The notes below the pieces were generated by a model. It was not told the origin of the DNA, did no database searches, and was given only the letters and a program-made list of their open reading frames with translations. Positions 1 to 51,600 of a stretch of DNA of 64,000 bases are shown here, piece after piece. The stretch covers positions 17,535,756-17,599,755 of the forward strand of contig NC_019880.2 in the NCBI RefSeq assembly GCF_002234675.1, read 5' to 3'. Within the stretch, counting starts at the first letter, position 1; every line of letters starts with the position of its first letter. The DNA comes from Oryzias latipes. Lineage: Eukaryota; Chordata; Actinopteri; Beloniformes; Adrianichthyidae. Both the position numbers and the translations under genes were made by a program.

Positions 1-1600
1 AGACAGAAACACACTTAAACTCTGGACTTTAGGAACTTTATTCAATTCTTAGGTTGAATATTGATGACAAATAGCATTGGGCGGAACTTACATTGTTCAT
101 GGTTAACTTTGACATTTGCACTGAAGGGGGTGCGGCCTATTTTATAACAAGAAAACATCAATCATGCAAAGACTTAACGGAGAATTTTCCAACTGATGTC
201 GGATTTGTTTCTATGCTGCCAACATAGAAACAACCACTTGTGGCCCTTTCTACGTAAAAAAAATACGACAGTCGAAATCAACTGAAATTTAAAATAAAAT
301 GAAACTAAATATTAGCAAAACTCTCTGCCGAATGGATTTACTTTGTTTGTTTGACAACGGATCTTATACCTGAGAAGCCTTCTCTTCGACTGACATGAGT
401 GAACAGAAGAGCCTTGGCTGTGTCTCAGATCCAACCAGGAGGATCCTTTTTTTTCCACCAGACAAGCCCATCGGAGCCAGGAGTCAAACTAGGCGTCCCA
501 CATCAGAGAGCTGCGTGGAATTCCTCAGCATGAATGAGCGCTGCATGCTCTAGATTGCGAGATTGGGGCGTTTTAAACATGTCCTGCGCTTATCTGACTT
601 AAGCTAGTCTGGGGGAATGCATAGACTTTAAGGTAGCTCCTTAGATGGGTTGGGAGGGTCAAATTTGAAGCCCTTTAGGCTTTGTTTCCCCCTGGGAGGG
701 ACATTCTTTGGGTGGCAGATGCATGCTTGACATAGCAGAACTGTGACATGTTTGTGTGATTGTGGGCTGGGAGATGCTGCAAATGCAGCCAAAGCGCCAC
801 TAATGGATGTGCGGAGGAATCCTCTGGATGAAGAAATCGTGAATTCACCGAATTTTTGTGTTAGCCAGGTGATGTGGACAGAGAATTTCAGGGATTAGTG
901 AGGAAGGGAAAGAAGATGACTTTGGAGAAAGTTGGTGGAATGACCCAAATGCCAATCAGCTTGTCGCTCTTAACGAAAAGAGAAAAATCTGCTGAGTCAC
1001 CACCGCCGCCGCCTCACTGGCTGATTCACAGGCTGTCTGGTGACAAAGCAACCCCAGTGTCTTCCCCAAATCTCCAGCCTGTTATGCAACAGTTTTGCTC
1101 TTGGAAAGACGGTCCTGTCATTCAAAATCCAAAGCTGGCCATTAAAATTCCTCCCTGCTCCTTGATGTACTGTTTTTTTCCAGCACCACAAAAACACATC
1201 TGTGGTTTTGTCTGAGGGAAAGAAACTGTTGCGCAAAGTGTGAAAAGGACACAGCAACAGAAAAAAATCTGCCTCAAAATGAAAAGAAAAGTATCTTCAG
1301 TGGTCATCTTCCTTTGTTTGTAGTCAAAAGAGACTGAACCTAAAGCGTTTATGTACTTTTACTGCTATTTTAATCCTTATATTATTCATTAAAGTTAAGT
1401 AATTGAGTTGCACTTACTGTAAAGCTGTTTTTAAAAGCTTTCTTTGTCGTTTTAAAGCAATTTTGCCATCATTTTTTTATTCCATTTGCACAGTTACAAC
1501 AAGTTTTAACCGATAATTTGTGTTGGATGTCACTTTAATCAATTTACAATTGTAGATTTTTTTTATTTTTCGTACTTCTCACAGTGAGAAAAAAAGAACC
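1..1600. other. gene-less upstream flank of marcksl1
   Basis: I see no coding region that I can support. The longest open stretch (874-1215, + strand) is proline- and serine-rich, has no recognisable domain and is overlapped by antisense open frames of similar length, so I treat it as chance. A TTTATT near position 38 could be the poly(A) signal of a minus-strand gene lying off the left edge, but nothing else supports that. Confidence 0.45.
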
Positions 1601-1918
1601 ATCCCCCTTTGCTAGTATCTCGATAAGCCCCGCCCATGGGAGGAGCCTTTGATCGATTTCGAGGCGCGGTTCAAAAACGCGCTCCTCTCCCTCACATCCT
1701 TCAATTTGAGCTCAGCCGTCGCGGGGAGCGCACTGAAAGGGGGGGTCCTGTCTTTACAAGCCTTTAAAGGTAGATCCTTCTGGATTTATTTTTTTCTTTA
1801 ACTCAAGAATTTACCCATCCCAGACCTGGATTTTTAAACCTCCACAACTCTTCAAGGTTTTTCTTTTTTCCATTTTTATTTTTTGGGGGTTTATAAAAAA
1901 CTTAAACAAAAAAACAAG
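1600..1918 (+). promoter_or_regulatory. marcksl1: marcksl1 promoter and 5' UTR
   Basis: A GC box (GCCCCGCCC, 1627-1635) and a short GC-rich, CpG-containing stretch at about 1660-1745 precede the coding start, in contrast to the AT-rich DNA on either side. I see no convincing TATA box, which is common for CpG-type promoters. The transcription start is probably near 1700-1760. The remainder to 1918 would be 5' UTR, T-rich and then A-rich up to the ATG. This is inferred from composition and position only. Confidence 0.5.
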
Positions 1919-3489
1919 ATGGGATCCCAGTTGTCTAAGGGTGGAGTAGCTGCTGAAGGGAAAGCCGCCGCCGCCGACCCTACTGCTGCCAAAGCCAACG
2001 GCCAGGTGAGTGAGCTGGGGCCCCTGATGCGTGGGGGGCATCAGCGGGGAGCCACATGGCACCAACGCCCACCACCAGCGTGGGTGCCACGGCGGAATCC
2101 ACTGCTGCTGCCTCCACAGATCTCCTTACACTAAATATTAATCTAAACATGAACTCTTAGTCGGAATCCGCCACCAGAGCAGCCACGGCTCGTCCCCGCT
2201 GCCTTTACGCGTCCACCCGCCTTTGTTCGTTCCGTCTGTTGGTCCCAAAGGGGCGATAATCCCGCACTTTTACGCACCAGACGCACCGATTTGGGTGCTT
2301 TCGTGCGTTTTCAGGCGCCTTTTCTGTCATGGGTTTGCCCGCGCGAGGCTTCAGCGTCGAACAAAGGATGCGGGGCGAGCGGTGCAAAGGATGCAAATGC
2401 GCTCTGCTGGAGGCGCAGTTTGCGGAGAAGCAAACAAAAGAGGCGCGAGAGCCTGCAGTCCTCGAAGCCTGCTGCTCACACCTGTAGTTTCTACGCCTCA
2501 AATAAAAGCTAAGAAGACACCAAACAGAAAGAAATATTGCCAAAAAATAAAACATACAAGAAACGAAGGTAATTTTTGTTTTTATGTGGTTTTATGTGTT
2601 TGTGCGCCCGCTTGCCATGACCCAGTTCTAAACTTCCCGATAATCGGAAGTCTCCAGAGCGTTTTTACAGACACTGAGCGTCGATTCTAGTGGTCCCGAC
2701 ATACAGAGCTGACTGGAGATGCTGGATGAGAGCAGAATCCAGGTTTCACGGAAATTCCTTTGTTCCCGAACCGCATTCTTGTTTAGTGGAGGTGAATCTC
2801 TACTGCCCCCGTGTGTCCGCCCTGCGTCATGACGCGTCAGCTGTTAGAAGAATGAATCCATACGAATAGGGAACGAGTTCAGATTTGCTTGGGGGGGAGG
2901 TCTGGAAAACGTTTTTTGTTTCTATTAGGGTAGTTTTAACCATGACCTCTTGACCTTTGCCCTGCAGGAGAACGGTCACGTCAAAACCAATGGAGACGTC
3001 TCTGCTAAGCCTGACGGGGAAGTGGCTGCCGATGGCAACGGGACCGCCGAGCCCACCAAGGACGGCGAAGCGAGCACCGGGGATGCGATCGAGCCCGCAC
3101 CAGCCGCGGAGGGGGAGGCAGCCAAAGCAGAGGGCGAGGCTACCAAGGATGCCAAGAAGAAGAAGAAGTTCTCCCTGAAGAACTCTTTCAAGTTCAAAGG
3201 CATCTCGCTGAAGAAGAGCAAGAAGAGCAGCGAGGAGGGCAAGGAGGAGGCCACGTCCCCCACGACCGAGGACAAACCAGAGGAGAACGGCCACACGGCC
3301 AAGGAGACCAAAGAAGACACGCCGGCCGCAGAGGCTAAAGAGGGCGAGGCCGCAGCCGCCGCTCCAGAGGGAGAGACCAAGGCCGCAGAGGAGGCCCCAC
3401 CGACAGAGGCCGCACCCGCCGAGGAGGCTTCCGCTCCCGCCGAGGGCTCAGCACCTGCAGCCTCTGAGGGTGAAGCCAACGCTGAGTGA
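1919..3489 (+). CDS. marcksl1: MARCKS-like protein 1 (marcksl1), two coding exons
   Basis: Exon 1 is 1919-2005 (29 codons, donor GTGAGT) and exon 2 is 2968-3489 (acceptor CCTGCAG), joined in phase 0 to give 202 residues, close to the roughly 200 of vertebrate MARCKSL1. The protein starts MGSQLSK, a typical N-myristoylation signal with Gly2. The intron falls inside the MH2 motif (KANGQ then [10 protein letters not shown]), its usual place in this family. Residues 92-116 form the basic effector domain: a lysine run followed by [11 protein letters not shown] with several serines, which in the family binds acidic phospholipids, calmodulin and F-actin and is released by PKC phosphorylation. The rest is Glu/Ala/Pro-rich and probably disordered. 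The family acts at the inner face of the plasma membrane on the actin cortex. I cannot say whether this is the a or b teleost copy. Confidence 0.95.
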
Positions 3490-4340
3490 CTGCCCTCCCA
3501 CTCCTCCACACCAGGACTGAATTTCCGAAATTAAAGTATATAAATATATATATGAGAGACTCGTGCCACGTTCTCAAAGTTTAAACAAAACAGAAGACGA
3601 CAACGGATTTATCACATTTGCTGATTCAGCCGCCAGTTCACTGCCTTTTATTAGTTCTTCGACAGACAGGAACCTCACCGGGCCCTCTCATGACGTGTGT
3701 CGCCCCTCCCCCTCACGGTACACACGGGGACCTCCATGCGTAAAAAGATGGAATGCAGAGCGCACCAGGAGTACTGACTTATTCTTTCCCCTCCTCCCCG
3801 ATCCACGAAGAGGCGTCCTCTTCAGCAGCAGCGTGGCAGCCCTATAACATTCTGTCTTTTCTCATTTTGTTGGGATCTACAAATCAGCACGGGACAGACC
3901 CATCTCCTCCACCGGAAATGACTGTTATATGGACACATGAATTTTTCAAATGAGCTTATTGATTTTTACATTTTACATTCCTTAAGTCTTTCCCCCCCGA
4001 CCCCCAGTTTCAAGTATTTTGTCATGTATAGAAAAGTGGAAAAACTTGTGGAGGGGAGGTGGAAAAAGAGCTATGTCTTTGTGCATTTTGATTCTTTTTC
4101 TGGCTAAAACCACATTCAAGCTACTTGGAGTGTTGCAGTGTTCACATTTCAGAGTCTATGACACAGATTTGGGGGGTTTGGGGGTTGTGTACAAAATGTG
4201 AGCTTTTTATCTGCAAACTGTCTCTGTAAATATGTTTTGGCCAATATTTTTTGGTTCTCTTTATTTTGCTATCATTTGAAGATGTTAATGGTTTTATTGT
4301 AACTTTTAATAAGGATAAATAAATGTTTGATCCCCTCTGT
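3490..4340 (+). terminator. marcksl1: marcksl1 3' UTR and poly(A) signals
   Basis: The TGA stop is followed by about 830 bases of AT-rich UTR. A canonical AATAAA sits at 4318-4323, followed by a GT/CT-rich stretch (about 4333-4360) that fits a cleavage-stimulating element. An earlier weak signal (ATTAAA, about 3532) could give a short isoform. Long 3' UTRs are typical of MARCKS-family transcripts. Confidence 0.65.
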
Positions 4341-7094
4341 GCGCCTCTCTGCTCTCTGCTTTCATTTGATTACAAGCCATATACTTCTCAAACAGGATAA
4401 TTAACAAGAAAATATGAACAGAAGGGTCTATTATGAAGCAGTAATCTCGAAATGACGGTGCCGACACCCAGTTCCGTCTTTTTTCTTCATTGTCATTTGC
4501 TGGTCTTTGGCTCCCCCTGGCGGCCAGAATTAGTTAGAACTATTTTAATTTGTAATTTTTATCGCCCCGTTTTTATGTTTTGTTAGTAAGTTTATAATAC
4601 ATTCTCTAATTTTAATATTTTTTTCAATACAGTAATGTGTATTTAAATGTATATATATATATAAATTTTAATGCACATGGTGGTTTATTTTGTACTTGAC
4701 CTGACCTGAATCTTAGCTGTTTGCTAAAGGGATTTTTAAAAAGTGCATCATTTGCTTTTCCTTTTTTTTCTACTTTTAGCATTTTAACATCAAAAGTTGA
4801 ACTATGGGTCGGTTTAAATGTCCCAAACTTCATATAGTTTTCTTTTTCTATTAGGTAGGAACTTCATGAATTTTAAAAGCTAAAACTTTCATCCTGCCCT
4901 TACAATAAACTCAAATGAGGGACAGGACTCTTATGTCATTTTATAATTCCAAAATAATCTTAAATCCCATTTTTTGTTCTTTTTTAATGCTAAAATACTA
5001 TTTTAGAAATGTGCTATTTCTGAAGTGTGTAGTTTGCTGTCTTTAGTACAATGAGTGATAAACCAGCAACTGCAGCGTGTGCTCCTGCAGGGACCTGACC
5101 TGACGAAACAAGGAAGTGCAGGTAAGGTCTTTTACAGAAGGAGAGAATGGCCTGCTTTGCCTTTTATTTTATTTTTTTGTTGCCTTTTTTCACGTTATAA
5201 CAACATCTGCTTTGACAAGAAAACATTTTTTTTTTCTCTTGATTGCAGACCAAATCCACAGTCCTTTCAGCCTGTCCTTCTCATGCATCATTCTGTAACC
5301 ATGGAGACGACCTGATCTCTCATCTGGTCACAGGCGAAATTGACAACAACTGCAGGATCACTAAACCTCCGCCACACGTGCAGCCGAGCCAGACTCCTCC
5401 TCAAACGACGATGGTCGCCTGAGTTAGACCACGACTCAAGTAATCAATCATTAATTCTTGGGTTGTTTGACATTTTCTCTGACAAACAGCTTTGGTTTGC
5501 TGTGGGTCGTAGAAACATTTCGGCAAAAAAATGTGTTTTCTTGTGATAATGAAATGTACTGTCTTGTTATCACCTCAAAAACTTGTTTTCTTGTGATAAC
5601 CTAATAGTAGATGTTGGCATCACGAGAAAATGGGCAAAAGTTCTCTTCACGGAGAACTTCTAAATGAGGTGTGTCGGAGTCCCTCCACCTCGACCCAAGG
5701 CCTTCCTCCCACCGAGTGCAAACTTCCTTTTTTTTTGCTCCATAAAAACAGAAAAGAAAACTTTAAAAACTCAGTCTTTGTCACATCAGTCCTCATTTTC
5801 TTCTTCAGGAAACACTTTCAGATGGTCTTTTGTAAAGAACATTTTTGACATTTTATTTTATAGTTAGCTGAACAATAAAAAATTTAAAAAAACAAATCTC
5901 TTATTTTATTTTACAAGGAAGTGTTGGACATAATCATGACGTAAACCTGAAAGTAAAACCAATTTGATCCTGCAGCATCAAATTCACAGGTATAACTACA
6001 AGGCTAAAAGGTAAAACTACAGTAAAGTAAAATAACAACAATCTGCTCATTTACAGACTGGGAATAGGGGTAGATCGGGCCCTTCTGCTGTGATGGCCAC
6101 CAAAGATGCAGCTGAATATGTTATGTCAGATGCTGAACTCCTCTCATCAGCTAACCAGGCAAAGAAAAGCAAAAACAAACCCTGAGTTTAAACTAAGCTT
6201 TGCTGCAGTCAGACGAAGTAGAAAATCCGTTTTCCTGGTTCTAGCATGAGGAAAAGTATCGAATATCCAATATTTTCCCATCTGGAGTCAGGAAAATGGA
6301 TTGCACTTGATTCAAAAGGTGGTATATAGTAACCTAAAGAATGAGGGAAAAGTGAAAAGACTGAGCTGCTCAGGTCAAAGCATTTTCCAAGAAGACATTA
6401 GGGCAGCTTGTGCGACAGCTGCTCATTCAAACTGCATTGAAGGGACAGTTTGGCAGAGCAGCTGCCTGCTGGACAGAATGACAGGGTGTTAAAGACCCAA
6501 ACAAAAGCTCTCATACACTTCTGTTGCTGCTTTTTAAGGACAACTCTGATATCTGAAGCTCCTTGACACAGACACCTTATTCTGTATCGTCAAAAAGTTA
6601 ATGAAACTCAAAACCTGGAGTTGATCCTCTGAACAGAAAAAGGAGGAATGTAAGACTGGGGCTTTAATAGTGCAGCAGATACCAATCTATCCCTGCATCC
6701 AGGGCGTCTGGAGCTTATTCCAGCTGTCTGTGAGCCAGAAGTGGATTAATGGTGGTCAGCAGTCCATCACAGTATTGCAAGGATCAACCGGGCACGCTCA
6801 CAACACCCTGGCGAAGCAGGTTGATGGCAAAAATGAAGAAAACGCAAGTGTGCATGGAGGAAAACATGTAAACTCTCATGCAGAAAGGTCTGGTTTCCAT
6901 TTCTGGGGACAATCCTAATCAAGCTGTGCACAACTTTTACAAACCGCTGTAAAAAAACATATGAATGTTCATCTTTAACTTTGTTTCATTTCAGAAGTTC
7001 CAAATACTCCACACAGAAACAACCAAAAACTGTTTGTCCTTGCTCCTGTTGGCCAGCAGCCATCCCATCACACGGGGTGGAGATGCAGTGGATT
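4340..7094. other. intergenic, marcksl1 to connexin
   Basis: AT-rich DNA without a supportable gene. Open frames at 5055-5867 are short, overlap one another and show no domain. It contains a diverged LINE-type tail repeat at about 6690-6830, listed separately. Confidence 0.45.
6690..6830 (-). repeat. diverged fish LINE-tail repeat
   Basis: The text around 'gcatccagggcgtctgg' followed by 'cagtccatcac' resembles, on the opposite strand, the fish-wide repeat seen better preserved at 33210-33375 and 48990-49275 (the segment with 'gataggctccag' and a GATG-type tail). Identity is low, so this is an old copy. Confidence 0.4.
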
Positions 7095-15548: not shown

Positions 15549-15951
15549 CAGTAAATCCTTGTTTTTCGTGGGGGTTACGTTCCAAAAGGAACCCGTGATA
15601 GGCAAAATCCGTGAGATTAGCCCCGCCCACCGCGACCCGGGTAATTGGATTAAACGGGAGAAAATTTAAAATGATCATGAAAAAAATACAAAGTACAGTC
15701 GGACAAATAGTGACTCAGGTGTATTTCACTGCTCTTCAGACTGAGCCGCTGCATCCTGACTCCGCTCTGCAGTGTTTTCTTCTTTTGAAGCCCGCGGTGC
15801 AGCTGTGTTTGTTCGGGAGCAGAACATAGTGATGGGCAGTTTTTGTCGCTCTTTTTTCTATGGGTTTGAGGGAAACTCGAAATTTCAAGATAATTTGCAC
15901 GTACGTAATGTAATTTTAGCAAGCTGTTTTATGTATGTGTACATATTAAAC

Positions 15952-16570
15952 TGTAACGGGAGTCACCTGTAGGTGTCTCTATACCCCTTGTTCAGAGGGT
16001 ATAAAAAGGAAGTTGACGTGTGGTTGCTATGGTGCTAACTTCCTGTGAGAAAGCCGGTTAGCTCAGAAAGCAGCGCGAGTTGGCTCGAGCAAAGAGTGCG
16101 GATCACGGCAGAGGTAGATCCTGCTTTACTGGGGGTTTTAAAGACTGGGCGTGAGGTGTTGCGACGCACCAGTGTTGGAATACTGTGCCCTGCTGTCCTG
16201 TTTAAGTTTATGTTTTGTATATTGTTTGTCCACTCCTCACGGGGCTGTCTCAGCGTGATTGACTAATCAAGTGCAGAAGCGGACTATTTACCCTCTGTTC
16301 TGTTTGTCATTTTTGTTGGTCACTTCCCTTAGGTTTCACCCCGCATGTTATTTTGGTGGGTGCCGTATCGCCGAGTGCTGTGCATCACAGTTATATTCAA
16401 TTTTTTTATTTTTTTATTGTTGTGCATGAACTGTGGTTTTTTTGTCTGCATGTTCCTGTGGTGTCATTGATACGGTCAACATTACCGTTACCGTTATTCT
16501 ACTCATGACGGGGTTTTTGCATTAATAAATTTTCGTAACCTGCTTTGTGGTAGTTTTCCTTTTTTGGCCG
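15952..16570 (+). repeat. gypsy left (5') LTR, 3' end truncated
   Basis: Begins TGTAACGGGAGTCACC and contains a TATA box (GGTATAAAAAGG, about 15999) and, near the end, AATAAA (about 16522), in the right order for transcription on the + strand. Compared with the right LTR it stops after TTTTGGCCG at 16570 and lacks the final CCTGCAACA, so the breakpoint with the inverted internal segment lies exactly here. A 9-bp duplication (ACCGTT repeated, about 16486) is absent from the other LTR. Confidence 0.88.
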
Positions 16571-16574
16571 ACAT

Positions 16575-19338
16575 AGGCAATTTATGTAGGTTAGAATGTT
16601 GGCCTGCCGTTTTTCGGGTTGACCTCCTGGGCTCACAAACTAGAGGCCTGTCAGCTTCTTCTGTGAGCTCCTGACCTTGAGGAGCTTGTATCTGAGGTGG
16701 TTTCTCCTCATCGTTTACATTCAATGAGTCATCCAAATGGAGCTCAGCACCATCATCAACACCTACGCCCCCCCTGTGCATGTTCCGGAACCTCCCCCTT
16801 CACTGAGGCTTCCCCCGCCGGCTTCCTCTCAGGGATGTTCCGTAGCTCTGCCCTGTAAACCTGTCGCAGAGGACCATCCTGACCTGCAGGGGCTACCGAA
16901 TACACATCCCCCTGTGGAGATGGCCGGCGAACAATCTGATAGGGAGTTGGGTCCCAAAAGTCTTGGCTTTTATTCCTTCCTCTAACTCCATGATTCCTTG
17001 TGTACACCAAATCACCCTCCTCAAAATCTGGGGCCAGACACTGATCCTGCATTTTCAGGTCTCTTTGCGCCCTGGTGTTTTCCATCTTCTGCTGCACCGC
17101 TGCATAGGCCACAGCTAAGGAGCTCTGATGCTCTTCAAGCCATTCGTCTAAAGGAAGATCACGCTCCATTTCACTTCCCATCAAAAAGTGTACCGGCAAC
17201 CTTGGTTCTCTGCCAAACATCAGGAAATATGGGGTCATACCAGTTGATTGACAGTTGTATTGTAGGCAAATGTAACTTGAGAAAGGTGGCGAGGCCATCT
17301 GCGTTTCTGCTCAGGTGGTAATGTTCGTAAAAGGTCATGCAGCGTGCGGTTAAAACGTTCACATTGGCCATTGCCTTGGGGATGGTAATGGGTTGTGCGG
17401 CTTTTGTCAATTTGATACAGTTTACAGAGTTGGTGCACCAAATTACTTTCAAAATTCCGCCCCTGACCGAATGAATGCGGGCTGGGGGACCAAACAGTTG
17501 AAACCAATGTTTCACCAATGCCTCTGCGACAGTACTAGCGCTTTCAACTTTTGTAGGGACCATTTGTGTACATTTTGAAAACACATCTGTCATCACCAAA
17601 ACATTCTCCCTGCCATTAGTAGCCAGATCCAACACAGTAAAATCTATCGCCAGAACTTCATAAGGATCGAGAGGCTTTTAAAGAGCCCATAAAGGTCTTA
17701 ACCTTTGGTTGTAATGCTTTTGACAATACGCACCTCTCACAGCTCCTACACCACTTCTCCACATCCGTATACATGTTTGGCCAATAATACCTCGACCGAA
17801 TCAGCTGCAGAGTCCGTTCGGTACCCTGATGGCCATGATCATCATGTAGGGAGTGAAGAATGGATTCCTGCAAAGACTGAGGCAACACCAACTGATTAAC
17901 TTCTCCCTGTCCATCTGAACTGTAAATGCAGCGGTAGAGCACTGACTCATGTTCCCGGAGACGCTTCCACTGCCTTATCAATTCCCTGGCCGGTTTACTT
18001 AACTCGTGCCTCTGTCTAGCATCTGGTATTTTACCCCTTTCCCAGTATTTCAAGAAGGGGCCAAGGACAGGGTATTTTCGTTGTAACGTGTAGAGGTCTG
18101 AAGGAGACAACCCAGGTAAGGTACTTATCTCAGCTTGCACACCTAAAACCCTCTCACTTCCCAAAGGCTCAGTTTCTGACAACTCCATCACTGGGTGCTG
18201 ACGCGACAATGCATCGGCATTGGCATTTTGGGAACCTGGGCGATATTTTATGGTTAAATCAAATGCTCCCAGCTCAGATGCCCACCTCTGCTCTGTAGCT
18301 CCCAACTTTGCTGTTGCCAAATGACTTAGCGGGTTGTTATCAGTGAACACCGTACAGGCATTCCCCACCAGATACTCGCAAAACTTTTCAGTGACCGCCC
18401 ACTTCAGTGCTACAAGCTCCAACTTCATGGAACTGTAGTTGTTCATGTTCTTCTTAGCAGGCTTCAAGCTACGACTTGCAAAAGCCACGGGGAGCAGCTT
18501 GCCCCCATGCTCCTGGGACAGTACAGCCCCCAAGCCTGCATGGCTAGCGTCTACCTCCAGTACAAAGGGTTTCTGAAAGTCTGCATAAACAAGAACAGGA
18601 GTGGTTGTTAGAGCAGTCTTCAGTTCCTGAAAGCTTTGCTCACACTCTGTGTCCCAGAACTCATCCACAGGCTTTTTAGGCGTCTTACCCTTTCTTCCAG
18701 GAGGGAGGAGCCTAGCCACCAAACGGTTTAATGGAGAGGCAATCTTTGCAAATCCAGCGATAAACCTTCTATAGTAACTTGCAAACCCCAAAAACGATCT
18801 GAGGTCAGCCAGGTTAGCTGGTCTTCTCCAGTCACGGACTGCAGCTGCTTTCTCTGGGTTGGTCGACACCCCCTCAGCAGACACCACATGGCCCAAGTAC
18901 TTCACCTGCTTCTGAAAAAACTGGCACTTTGAAAGCTTTACCTTCAAACCCTGTGCATCTAAACGGGAGAAAACTTGATCCAAACGTTGCAAATGTTGTT
19001 CAATGGAAGAAGAAAAAAACGATGACATCATCTAAGTACAACAGCACAGACTGAAAACGACAGTCCCCAAACAGTCTTTCCATGAGGCGTTGAAAAGTGC
19101 TAGGTGCATTGCATAAACCAAAAGGCATACGATTGAACTCAAATAAACCAAATGGTGTGCAAAAAGCAGTTTTGGCCTTGTCCTTTTTAGCCACCTCCAC
19201 CTGACTGTATCCGCTGGCCAAATCAAGTGTCGTAAACCATTGTGCTCTGGCCAAGGAATCCAAGGACTCGTCGATTCTTGGCAGGGGGAATGCATCTTTC
19301 CTGGTTCTGGCATTCAACTGCCTATAGTCTGTGGACCC
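16575..19338 (-). pseudogene. pol: gypsy pol remnant (RT, RNase H, integrase), several frameshifts
   Basis: Reads right to left. Reverse transcriptase starts in the middle (DYRQLN), runs through LDLASGYSQVEV and FGLCNAPSTFQRLM to the catalytic YLDD (about 19030). A one-base gain in a run of T (about 19011-19017) then shifts the frame. RNase H follows (VLEVDASHAGLGAV to NADALSR), then the integrase zinc-binding module (HDDHGHQGTERTL ... CRSCERC). Another shift lies near 17660. In the integrase core the first Asp is present (TDVFSK), but the second catalytic Asp is lost through a one-base deletion beside HS-QGRNFE (about 17470). CERFNRTL supplies the Glu. A further shift lies near 17250. The C-terminus ends RRSTRKTAGQHSN close to the left LTR. 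No functional enzyme can be made. Confidence 0.9.
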
Positions 19339-19376
19339 ACATCGTCGGGTCAACGATGCACTTTGAGGGGGAGAGA

Positions 19377-19997
19377 TGTAATGGGAGTCACCTGTAGGTG
19401 TCTCTATACCCCTTGTTCAGAGGGTATAAAAAGGAAGTTGACGTGTGGTTGCTATGGTGCTGACTTCCTGTGAGAAAGCCGGTTAGCTCAGAGAGCAGCG
19501 CGAGTTGGCTCGAGCAAAGAGTGCGGATCACGGCAGAGGTAGATCCTGCTTTACTGGGGGTTTTAAAGACTGGTCGTGAGGTGTTGCGACGCACCAGTGT
19601 TGGTAAACTGTGCCCTGCTGTCCTGTTTAAGTTTATGTTTTGTATTTTGTTTGTCCGCTCCTCACGGGGCTGTCTCAGCGTGATTGACTAATCAAGTGCA
19701 GGAGCGGACTATTTACCCTCTGTTCTGTTTGTCATTTTTGTTGGTCACTTCCCTTAGGTTTCACCCCGCATGTTATTTTGGTGGGTGCCGTATCCCACCG
19801 AGTGCTGTGCATCACAGTTATATTGCATGTTTTTACTTTTTTATTGTTGTGCATGAACTGTGGTTTTTTTGTCTGCATGTTCCTGTGGTGTCATTGATAC
19901 GGTCAACATTGTTATTCTACTCATGACGGGGTTTTTGTATTAATAAATTTTCGTAACCTGCTTTGTGGTAGTTTTCCTTTTTTGGCCGCCTGCAACA
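19377..19997 (+). repeat. gypsy right (3') LTR, complete
   Basis: Runs TGTAATGGGAGTC to GGCCGCCTGCAACA, 621 bp, with a TATA box and AATAAA in + orientation as in the left LTR. It is preceded immediately by the polypurine tract and followed by the AAAC target duplication. A 73-codon open frame occurs at the same place in both LTRs; it is a by-product of the promoter region, not a gene. Confidence 0.9.
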
Positions 19998-20141
19998 AAA
20001 CTGCAACGTTATTGACACACAGGTAGAGAAGAAGCGGAGTGACTTTTTAGCCAATCATACTGCAGAACACAATGCACGACGCAAATCCATGAAGTAGCGA
20101 AACTGTGAAAAGTAAACTACGTTATGGCAAGGGATCACTGT

Positions 20142-20454: not shown

Positions 20455-20706
20455 GGGCCTCATTTATAAAACTTTGCGTAGGATTTGCGTCAGAACTGGC
20501 GTACGGATAAAACATAGGACGTGCGTACGCAAAGAAATATTCGGATTTATAAAACCGTGCGCACGCACATCCTACGGATTTTTCCCTTAATAAATTACAA
20601 TTAATTCTAAATGTAGCGCAGCTTTTGCGGCTTCATGACACGCCCATAGTTGCCCATAAACAGTCCGTGCGACGCCCACAATTTAATATTCATTGATTGC
20701 AAAATC

Positions 20707-21069
20707 ATGGCAAACACAGAAAGGAAATCAAAAAAACATAACTTCACTCAATGTGAAGTAGAAGTTGTCGTTGGCGAGGTGGAAAAGAGGAGAAAAATGT
20801 TGTTTGGAGGGCACAGTGTGGGCATTACTAATGTCAAAAAGGCACTTGAGTGGCAAACGGTGGCGGACGCCGTAAATGCTGTAGCCTCACAACCACGGAC
20901 CGTGGCCGAAATGAAAAAGAAATGGTCGGACATCAAAGTCGAGGCAAAAAAACGTCTAGCGCTCCATCGTCAGAGTGTGTCTGCCACGGGTGGGGGAAAG
21001 GGGACACCGGAGATGACCCTTCTTGATGAGAGACTGGCGACAATTATTGGGGAATCCCTATTAAGTTGA
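20707..21069 (+). CDS. Harbinger Myb/SANT-like DNA-binding protein
   Basis: This 120-residue open frame is intact. I chose the ATG at 20707 (MANTERKSKKHNFTQ) over the in-frame ATG at 20650 because the domain begins right after it. Residues 10-75 look like a Myb/SANT-like domain (NFTQCEVEVVV, EWQTVADAVNAV, VAEMKKKWSDIK). In Harbinger transposons the second gene codes for such a protein, which helps transposase enter the nucleus and bind the ends. Here it may be the full length or slightly shortened: related host proteins such as NAIF1 are longer. The 3' end overlaps by 9 bp the end of the convergent transposase remnant. Whether it is expressed is unknown. Confidence 0.75.
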   Translation: MANTERKSKKHNFTQCEVEVVVGEVEKRRKMLFGGHSVGITNVKKALEWQTVADAVNAVASQPRTVAEMKKKWSDIKVEAKKRLALHRQSVSATGGGKGTPEMTLLDERLATIIGESLLS

Positions 21070-21622: not shown

Positions 21623-21743
<121 letters not shown>

Positions 21744-34763: not shown

Positions 34764-37700
34764 ATGTTACCGGTAAGTGTTCAGTGATGACATCAAACAG
34801 GATGTGCCTCGTGAGAGTTTACGGTTCCCGCCGCCTCTAACGCCGTTAACCGTTGCTAAGCAAGACACTCTGTAATATTGGCGGTACTTTTGAACTTAAA
34901 TAACTGTCAAAGCTGTACTGTGGGAAATAAAAATAAAGTTTCATCAGACTATATTGCAATGTTAACATGGTGGGTGTGCTTGTCTGTCCTCTTATCTATG
35001 CAGAGTAATTAGCTTAATTGGGCAAAACGTATTTTTTTTAAATAAAATAAAACAAAAAATGCATTTGGTAGACAGAGTTTACATATAACAACTGAGAAAG
35101 CTTAAAAAATTTATTGGATTTTAAAAAAATATCCAACTTCAATGTTACTTAGGGGTGCTAAACGTAGGTTAAATGTTTGGAACAGAAGTTTGAGTTTCTT
35201 ACCCATCTTCACTTTTATTAATTCATCCTCATTTTGTTTTAGCGCCTTTCTTCTGGAAGGACATTTAAGACCTCTGATGTCATAAATACTTAAACTGTGA
35301 TTGGACAAACAGCCAGCGGGGTGATGAGGTGCAACTGTGAGTAGCGGGGTTGGTTGTGTACATAGGCTGTAAAAACAGTGGACGAATCGAGGTGAGACGT
35401 CACCCATTAAAAAAACGCCTTAACTCCGGCTCTCGCGAAATGAGGCTAGCTCCCTCACCATTGCTTCCTGACACGGGCGCCGCCATGTTGAAACCAGTTG
35501 ACAGTGATTGGTCCAAGTCGCTCTGAGTCTAAGGTACGATCTTAGATACGATGACTCAGAGCAAAACTCAGAGCAACAGTAGTTGCCATTGCCTTAGATA
35601 CAATGACTCAGAGCAATTCGGACCAATCACTGTCGAGTGGTTTCAACATGGCGGCGCCCGTGTCAGGAAGCAATGGTACTTGCTATTTGGGAACACGAAA
35701 AGGGAGGGGTTGAGCTGTCCATTTTTACCGTGTGTAGGCTTTCAGTGAACATAAGACATAAGCTATGTGTGAATTCTCACCCTAATCCCTTACTCCTAAA
35801 AAACTATATAGCACAAGACTTTCTAGTGCTCTGGATTTTAAAAGAAATTCGGACATGATGCTCTCTACTTTTTTCTTTCTTTTTTTTTTTTTGAATGGGA
35901 AATATGACGTCACCGATTTCACGAAGTGAAAATCTAATCAATATGAGCATATTACAATGACTGTTTAATGTTGATTGTTTATTTTAAAAATACTTTTAAA
36001 CACATTTTTTTCACAAAATTTTTTCAAACGCAATGCATTGTGGTCTATATTCGCCAATCTAGTGAGCATCAATGCACACTGGTCTTTTGCAGAGACGTCT
36101 GGGAAACTTGCAGAGCACTGGATTTGAAATTTTAGATTTGTACAGCTCTACAAAATGGCATATGCACCATATAATGCACTATGTTGTGAGAAGTTACTGA
36201 ATTGAATTTTCTCTACTATCTAACTATTAAAAACTTTATAGTGTGGGACTATCTAGTTCCCTGTATTTTTAAAGCAATCAATAAATATGAGCATTTTTCA
36301 AAACTATTTATGAACCCACTGTGTTCTGATGAAAACGTGGATGGTTTATACAAAATTCATATTTTTTAACAAAAAAGGTCTATATTTGCCTAGTGAGCAT
36401 CGATGCACGCTGGTTTTTTACATACATTTTTGGGAAATTTTTAGGGCATTCAATTATGGAATTGTAGGCTATGTGAAAATTCCTTTACTACTCACAACAT
36501 AGTGCACCAGATAGTGCGTTCACCCTTTTGTAAATGGCGAATCGAGTGAGTCAGCTGATCCCATTTCTCCACACAGGTGTACAAACTTGGGTTGGTAGAT
36601 AGATTGTAAACAGATGTAAATAGAGCCTTTTACATTGCAGGTATTCATTTATCTTTGATTCATTTATTTCTGTGAAAAGTGAATTTATTTAATTAGCGTT
36701 TGCAGTAAGGTTTCATGTGTTAGGATTTTTTGTATCTCTGGTCATTCGGCCAAGTTGTTGAATGGATCTCATGACAATGCGTCCACATAAAAATTTCCTG
36801 TTTTTCATTTTGCTTTAAAGTTGTGGCGTTCAGGATAAAGGTCAGAATTGCAGATTCTCTGCTGTCTTTTCTCATCCAGTAGCCATTTCTCTGGATTGTT
36901 TCTCCCTTTCTCGCTCACACACAAATGCATTCAACACTACACCTCTTTGTGGCTGGGTTTAGCTGCTGTCAGCTCCAGACAAAACACAGAAGATATAAGG
37001 ACGTGTTTACTCCAAAGAGAGCGATAAAGAAAGGACAGAGGGAGCAACACAAAACCCAGAGGGGACTGCTACCTTGATCCTTGACCCCTCCTGAGTATTT
37101 TTTAATTTTTTTTTATTTTGTGATCCAAAGCACACATGGGAGTTTTAACCTACCCCAACACAATGTTAAAACAGTCAGTCATTGTGAAAGTGTTGCTGTT
37201 ATTTTTGTTCTGCCTCCAGAGAACCTGGATCAACTCCTCAAGTATTTTTTTTGTTGGTTTGCCTTTTAATGTTTCCTTCTAAAATAAAAACCCTCAACAC
37301 TAGTTTAGGATAGCCTAATTCATTGTTCCGGAAACAGAACATGACACCATCTGTGTGCTTCATCGGTGCCGAGCGGATGACGCATGTAAGTAAGAGTGTC
37401 AGCTTTACAGCTGTCATTGGTTTCCTTTCCAACAAGCAATATTGACATTCTAGATTCATGACTGCACCCTTCAGTACCGGATGGCCACTGGTTATAACAA
37501 TAAAAAAAAAAAAAAAAAACCGCAAACAATAACTGAGTTTAAAACCCAAGATGATGTCAGACTTGATTGAAAGATACCTGGAGTAGGATATTTATTCATT
37601 ATGCAGCACTAATCGAAATAGTTTCTAATATTTTTTTCAATTATTTTGTCTTTGCAACCATCTTAAGTCTGCATAACCATAATGCTACTTTTTTTTAAAT

Positions 37701-48600: not shown

Positions 48601-51600
48601 CAATAATTATCACAAAAATGCATGTGAGATTGTGGAGGGACTGTAGATCAAAACAGACTATGAGTTTCTCCTTTTTTTTTCATTTTTGGATGCTGGTGTG
48701 CCGCGGGATTTTTTTTAAGCTTAAAGTGTGCCGCGGCTCAGAAAAGGTTGAAAAACACTGGGTTAGGGGAAGAATTCAGTTTCAGCCAAACTGTCTTGAC
48801 TTTTTTGAATTACCAAGCTGTTTCATGAAGTGAAGAAACACAGAACTTAATACTGTATGCTCAACAAAGAAGTCATCAGTATTCGGCCACATAGACAACA
48901 CTTGCTGACTCACTTGACAGATGTACAATAACTGAGAAGCTAGACCATAAAATACTAAAAAGTGATAAATACTAATTACCTTTCTGTGTGAAGTTTGCAT
49001 GTTCTCCCCGTGCATGCGTAGGTTTTCTCGTTGGACTCCGGCTTCCTCCCACCATCCAAAAACATTCTTCATAGGTTTATTAAATTTAAATTGTCTATTA
49101 AATTCTTAAATTGTCCCTAGGTGTGAGTGTGTATGGGTGTGTGATTGTGGCCGTGCGACGGACTGGCGACCTGTCCAGGGTGTCCCCTGCCTTTGCCCAT
49201 GACTGGCCAGTATAGGCTTCGGGTGCCCCGTGACCCCAAAAGGGATAAAAACGAGTTTAGAAGATGAATGAATCAATAACTTGTCTTTCAAGATCAGCTC
49301 TTAGGAAAAAGATTGTAGTTGTGACGTTGCAAATACAGTGGGCGGGCCACAAGCTCCCTGCTCTGCTCCATTCTGATGCATCCACTGGTAGACGACTACA
49401 TCCATGAACATCTTTGTTTTTCTCATCTGAGCTGGCATCGAAATAAAAACTGTACATCTGGATAGCTGAAATTTTGCTCGCCCTGGTAATGTTAGGTTGG
49501 GGATGTGAGAGGCTGTAAACTAGTGGGAGAACGTGTAAACAGAGAACTCTCAGTAATCGGTAACAGGAAGTGGGGGTGGGGGTTGCTCAGCGTCAATTGT
49601 CCCGCCCACAACTCAAGGGCAAATGATGACCTTCAGAGTTCCCCCACTATATCGTGGTTCAGCCTTCATAGTGTGGGAGAGTTTCTTTTAATGTGACTTT
49701 GCAATCCTACTTTGCAGAGCGTGTCCCCCACGATAAATGAGTGTGCAGAGCCCTGTACTGCCGCTCTGCAGAAACTATTTTGTAGAAAAAGACACAGGTT
49801 ATTTGATTTTGGCCAAAAACTGCATAATCATGAATAAAAGACCACTGGTAAAGCTTTTGAAATACGTCAAAAGATGATCGGAGCTGGACTTTCAAGTCAC
49901 TTTTTACATGGTGAACTAATGTTCATACAAGGAAAAAAATCCTTGCTGATGCAAGCCATGGTATGATTTTTAAGGTCTTTTTAGTAGAACGAAAAGACCA
50001 TCTTTATAATCCTATTATTAGAGTAAGTAGTCTGTTTTTGTTGTTGTTGAATGAAAGCAAATATGTCCTGTATGTTGAAGTCTTGTAAACCTGCAGATTC
50101 ACTTATCATTGTTTCTTTTTTTGTCTTTACATGTGATTCTAGTGACAGACAGATGAATGTAGGAGGGAGAGGCTAAATGTGTAAAAAAGAATTCCCACTG
50201 TTCAAACACTGTACAGATGGACTGCTGTTGATTTCACAACAAAGTGATTTTATCAGGGAAAGAATTTGCCTCCTGAGAAATTTTACGTCAGAGGCTGCTT
50301 TAAGTTCAAAAAGGTCATCGTTGTTTATTTGTGAGCATACATACATACATACATACATACATACATACATACATACATACATACATACATACATACATAC
50401 ATACATACATACATACATACATACATACATACATACATACATACATACATACATACATACATACATACATACATACATACATACATACATACATACAAGA
50501 AACCTTAAACTTGTTGAAGATCACAAAATTTGAACTTTCCAGCATTTTCTGAACTGATAATCTGCACTCATTTAGAGTAAATACAAAAGTATTTGAAGTC
50601 CATGATATCCCTACAAAAGTAGAAATAGGGAATTCGACTGGGTCAAGACAGTTTTAGTCTGGGCCACTTTTTTAATTTGAATGAACTATAACATTCGATC
50701 TGTTTGTGGTTTCAGGTGATCCTGACAGTCTATCTCAATGACACCCAGCAGATGTTAACTGAGGTCCCAGTTACTCCAGCAACAAGAGTGGTTGATGTGG
50801 TGGAGTACTGCAAGGAGGCTGGTGAGGGGGAGTGCCACTTGGCCGAGGTCTGGAATGGACACGGTGAGTCCAATCACTGGTTTACCAGAAATCGTCAGGA
50901 ATCATACTTTAGCCATCCATGTTTTCATTTGTATGCTAAGCAAAATGTATATGGCACATGCCTAATTTGTTTGGACTTCCGCCAATTTCCGCTGTTGGTT
51001 TCTAAAAAACTGAATCCATCTTTAAGGTCTTTGGAAATCTAAAAAAAGGAGCAAGAAAGTGGGTTTAACCACTGTTACTTAAAATCTTGTGTGGTCCAAA
51101 CAAGCCAAGGCAAATCTGATGTTATAGAATGAAACCAAAGACCTGCTCGCGATCAAGGACTTATGAAAATTTGACAAACGGAACCTGTTCTGTACAGCAG
51201 ACACAGTGCAGAGAAGATTGATTGACACGGTTAACAGCCAATCAGGATGCAGAGCACATTGCACTGTTCAAAAAGAGGAAAATATAACTGACAAAAAAGC
51301 AACAAATCAGCGAGTGAGACTGTAAAAGGTAAACTATGTTAAAGCGAGGGAACACTGTAAATATTTAGCAGAATACAGAGTTAAGAAAAACATTTTCCAA
51401 GAACTTTTTAAATTGACGGATTGTTACTAAATTGTTTTATTTGTCCTTACATGCAGACTAATGATATTTTTTAATGGAAAAACACAACCACTAAGTAATG
51501 TTTACAAAAAAGACAGCCATAATCAGATCCATGAGGTCTTTTTGAATGTCTGGTGGTTTAAATGTTTCAAAGTTTATCACTAAACTACTGTTGGGGGCTC

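Follow-up and report, generated by a model that had tools for sequence, protein, structure and literature searches.

How did an LTR retrotransposon come to carry its pol gene in the direction opposite to its own LTRs? The question is raised by a unit of 4046 bases (15952-19997) in the genome of Oryzias latipes, bounded by two direct LTRs and lying within a window of 64 kb (the whole stretch of DNA that was analysed, to which all positions refer). The unit is a defective derivative of a Ty3/gypsy LTR retrotransposon whose internal remnant is reversed, and its anatomy, as directly observed, is listed in Table 1. Relative to the LTRs the sense of pol is opposite, unlike in a standard Ty3/gypsy element.

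Table 1. Features of the rearranged element, with positions in the window, strand and basis.
Feature	Position	Strand	Basis or remark
Left target-site duplication AAAC	15948-15951		sequence; 4-base edge match ~0.6% by chance
Left LTR	15952-16570	+	TATAAA near start, AATAAA near end; without the right LTR's last 9 bases
Left junction	16570/16571		LTR meets reversed 3' part of pol; no TGG before 16600
Presumed pol C-terminal part (integrase tail)	16571-17255	-	frameshifted; Pfam match absent; placed by position and by resemblance
Integrase core remnant	17256-17665	-	rve 17468-17665, rve_3 17256-17414; two frames; both below curated cut-off
Integrase zinc-binding domain (Integrase_H2C2)	17715-17882	-	Pfam
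RNase H domain (RT_RNaseH / RT_RNaseH_2)	18261-18656	-	Pfam
Reverse transcriptase (RVT_1)	18885-19338	-	Pfam; one frameshift near 19010-19030; N-terminal part absent
Right junction zone	19330-19364		secure RT homology ends at 19329; short inverted repeats inside
Polypurine tract GAGGGGGAGAGA	19365-19376	+	directly abuts right LTR
Right LTR, complete (TGT...ACA)	19377-19997	+	LTR comparison
Right target-site duplication AAAC	19998-20001		sequence

The two LTRs are identical at 595 of 610 aligned sites (15 substitutions, 8 of them transitions; K2P 0.025) and differ internally by one 2-base indel and one 9-base indel. Their alignment bore out a claim of the preliminary description of this locus, namely that the left LTR lacks exactly its last 9 bases at the junction with the reversed segment: in the right LTR these bases read CCTGCAACA. 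The outer ends of the element are TG and CA, and the AAAC target duplication that had been described outside both LTRs is indeed kept at both outer edges, where a 4-base match occurs in ~0.6% of random placements within the window. An annotation paper cautions that recombination between elements may account for rearranged LTR elements (PMC2672092), and it may also have been the source of the present copy; the matching target duplication speaks against this. No other copy of the element was found in the 64 kb window.

We then asked on which strand the LTRs are to be read. The preliminary description had placed both on the + strand from the order of TATA and AATAAA. Only the first of these motifs carries that reading: TATAAA occurs once per LTR, 49 bases in and on the + strand only, whereas AATAAA lies near the 3' end of both LTRs on the + strand and is also found on the - strand. 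As it is present on both strands, AATAAA does not fix the polarity and was set aside as evidence. The polypurine tract beside the right LTR was recovered on the + strand as previously stated, as a run of 12 purines without a gap to the LTR. The opposite polarity, in which the element as a whole would truly lie on the - strand, was rejected on the strand of TATAAA and on the position of the purine tract. It is further disfavoured by the mirrored places, as we found neither a purine tract on the - strand at the inner edge of the left LTR nor a TGG-type primer site near the inner edge of the right LTR. Given TATAAA, the placement of the purine tract and the empty mirrored sites, we read the LTRs on the + strand.

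The reverse transcriptase (RT), RNase H and integrase, in contrast, are read on the - strand, as had been proposed. Pfam matches were obtained in 4 of the 6 - strand frames scanned, for RVT_1 (3.5e-22 and, past a frameshift, 1.8e-7), RT_RNaseH_2 (8.5e-30), RT_RNaseH (1.1e-24), Integrase_H2C2 (2.4e-23), rve (4.2e-6) and rve_3 (2.8e-5), the last two both under their curated cut-offs. The other two frames, without a Pfam match, cover the region that we take to be the integrase tail from its position and from resemblance. As a control, 12 + strand frames with a length of 60 aa or more and an overlap with the internal region were scanned, and none matched Pfam. Neither gag nor protease was matched among these 6 - strand and 12 + strand frames, which is consistent with a deletion. 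The domains follow the Ty3/gypsy order, RT - RNase H - integrase, and the nearest sequence match in the PDB is Ty3 (7q5b, 4ol8; E 1.9e-40, and 3.9e-32 in a second search), Ty3 Gag-Pol and Ty3 RT being the best solved relatives. The element thus resembles Ty3/gypsy elements (Metaviridae) in this domain order, in its TG...CA LTRs, in its polypurine tract and in its 4-base target duplication. It differs from them in that pol is antisense to the LTRs, the left LTR is 9 bases short and without a TGG-type primer site, and the N-terminal part of RT and anything preceding it are absent.

The two junctions could be placed with different precision. The left junction lies 9 bases inside the U5 end of the left LTR. 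There is no TGG within the 29 bases after this LTR, the first occurring at 16600. At the right junction, RT homology is secure to 19329 (a DYR motif). The phmmer alignment to the Ty3 RT chain 4ol8 starts at residue 108 and becomes convincing at about residue 118, which is where 19329 falls, and the Pfam alignment reaches 19338. Homology past 19329 was considered, as the residues T-R-R-C-G resemble T-R-F-C-V in a relative and are included in the phmmer alignment, and was rejected as not significant, since scores as high were reached by 516 of 5000 shuffles and by 616 of 5000 random window pieces. Because of this, the right junction is placed only to 19330-19364, that is, within 35 bases and no further than 47 bases from the right LTR. 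The earlier claim that RT is cut in mid-domain near 19335 needs correcting: RT is truncated, but the cut lies near the start of the Pfam domain rather than in its middle, the RVT_1 alignment starting at profile position 15 of 205. The junction zone also contains overlapping short inverted repeats, TGTGG/CCACA (19330-19341) and CATCGT/ACGATG (19340-19358).

With the TGG-type primer site absent and the N-terminal part of RT missing, replication by the standard route is not possible. With no primer site and with a pol that is frameshifted, reversed and truncated, the copy would, on the template-switch reading given below, have been dead on arrival. The state of the left end also bears on the idea of a non-autonomous family that has the reversed pol as a fixed component and multiplied in inverted form, since a left LTR that is truncated and has no TGG-type primer site precludes copying by that route. 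Three frame changes in pol are bounded on both sides by Pfam matches, and two more probable frameshifts fall in the integrase tail (assigned by position and resemblance). This amounts to 5 frameshifts in 2760 bases (1.8/kb), or 3 in ~2.1 kb (1.4/kb), against 2 indels in the 1220 bases of the LTRs (1.6/kb), a comparison of rates that rests on small numbers. The similar decay of pol and LTRs suggests that the pol region was coding at about the time of insertion. As pol decay is not clearly above LTR decay, and as the 64 kb window holds no other copy, we regard a multiplying inverted family as highly improbable.

How, then, did the rearrangement arise? We infer that the LTRs and pol belong to one family; if so, an inversion plus a deletion of the internal region is required. 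Such an event, already put forward in the preliminary description, fits everything that we tested, with the opposite polarity disfavoured by the mirrored sites. We rank first, at about even chances, a template switch during reverse transcription, before insertion. The plus strand would have stopped 9 bases short of the U5 end, ahead of the primer binding site. The growing strand would then have switched to plus-sense template close to the 3' end of pol, with synthesis running back to a point near the RT start. A second jump would have led to the minus strand next to the polypurine tract, where the 3' LTR was completed. The product of this order of events and of these template jumps, which we infer, would have had two usable ends, so that insertion by integrase could have taken its normal course and left a 4-base target duplication. 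The complete outer LTR ends and the matching AAAC are as expected from normal integration of a rearranged molecule.

The position of the breaks speaks to this reading. The primer site and the purine tract are the places of strand transfer and of plus-strand priming in reverse transcription. For uniformly distributed breakpoints and an assumed element length of 4-7 kb, the chance that two breaks would both come this close to the edges is ~0.00003-0.0001, a figure obtained post hoc. Because the junctions are both found close to the ends of the internal domain, where strand transfer and priming naturally occur, template switching is mildly favoured over chromosomal breakage. Against template switching, two non-homologous jumps are required. 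A normal insertion followed by a later chromosomal rearrangement is a tentative alternative that we hold to be somewhat less probable. It supposes breaks at the end of the left LTR, in RT and near the polypurine tract, after which the 5' part was lost and the remaining piece was end-joined in reverse. Ordinary break repair suffices for such an event, which would have preserved the outer LTR ends and the target duplication, and the decay rates fit an inversion after insertion equally well. The inverted repeats at 19330-19341 and 19340-19358 are of the kind found at repair junctions and may also be native. Breaks at random, however, would rarely come as close as 9 bases to one LTR edge and 47 bases to the other, on a rough and post hoc estimate. 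For HTLV-1, the authors of one study argue that most defective proviruses were altered after integration (PMC13427564).

Two further explanations were weighed. An assembly error, by which two elements or a misoriented piece were wrongly joined, is very unlikely, if less so than the multiplying family discussed above: LTR repeats are typical places of misassembly, but the left junction lies 9 bases inside the LTR and not at a repeat boundary, and the window contains no N. Autointegration, the insertion of the cDNA into itself, was rejected by reasoning alone, as its inverted product would be a circle with oppositely oriented LTRs, whereas the LTRs here are direct.

Scrambled proviruses are already known from retroviruses. 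In a survey of HIV-1, inversions were reported for one provirus and inversions combined with a deletion for another, at 1.3% each (PMC9278108), and a survey of HTLV-1c gives an inversion in 1.9% of proviruses (PMC13427564), so that the share of proviruses with inversions is about 1-3% in these surveys. The authors of the latter point out that homologies at a junction can be left by template switching as well as by end joining, and they incline towards change after integration (PMC13427564). The present copy is like these defective proviruses in that part of the sequence is reversed, and one of the two HIV-1 cases also has a deletion (PMC9278108, PMC13427564). Those proviruses are recent, somatic and retroviral; the present copy is decayed and lies in the genome of a vertebrate host. 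A search of the literature, covering titles and the starts of abstracts of open-licence papers, found no description of an inverted gypsy copy.

The element is one dead copy of a common type, Ty3/gypsy, and as such a curiosity and not a new type of element. Its value is that of a clean fossil of an inversion within an LTR retrotransposon, with the outer ends and the target duplication retained. A lone copy is of modest value; if other copies have their junctions at the same two edges (the U5 end and the polypurine tract), they would provide genome-wide data on errors of reverse transcription. We also considered that the LTR promoter of this copy, and perhaps those of sister copies sharing its junctions, might still drive an antisense-pol transcript that, as a source of small RNAs, silences intact family members in trans, and that the inverted copy was kept as a suppressor. 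We consider this extremely improbable, more so than the multiplying inverted family.

We found no close relative of the element in prokaryotic, viral, plasmid and phage collections. Searches of viral contigs with the RT part and with an LTR pattern gave no match, nor did searches of prokaryotic genome contigs, phages and plasmids by DNA. The sole match to a viral contig was dropped, as the other frames of that contig are phage-like, reading presumably like a Mu-type phage. When plasmids were searched by protein, 3 records were returned, whose best places were all below 60% identity; one of them, NZ_CP087956.1, was used only for its RT start. This record (1-5332), which is filed as a Wolbachia plasmid, has genes for an aspartic protease, an RT of gypsy type and a protein resembling RNase H. 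It may be not a plasmid but a retrotransposon of the moth host in circular form.

The surroundings of the element contain several other features. Rfam and tRNA scans of the window gave no match (ARAGORN, bacterial code). An ORF at 2929-3489 matches the MARCKS family and is probably a host gene. About 650 bases to the right of the element, an ORF at 20650-21069 encodes a Myb/SANT-like DNA-binding domain and is possibly part of another transposon. Taken alone, these two ORFs would point to a vertebrate and perhaps to a fish. Further along, a stretch of 221 bases (35457-35677) matches its own reverse complement at 75% and is perhaps a palindromic MITE. The window also holds two near-perfect tetranucleotide arrays, (TCTG)29.8 at 21624-21742 and (CATA)40.5 at 50336-50497.
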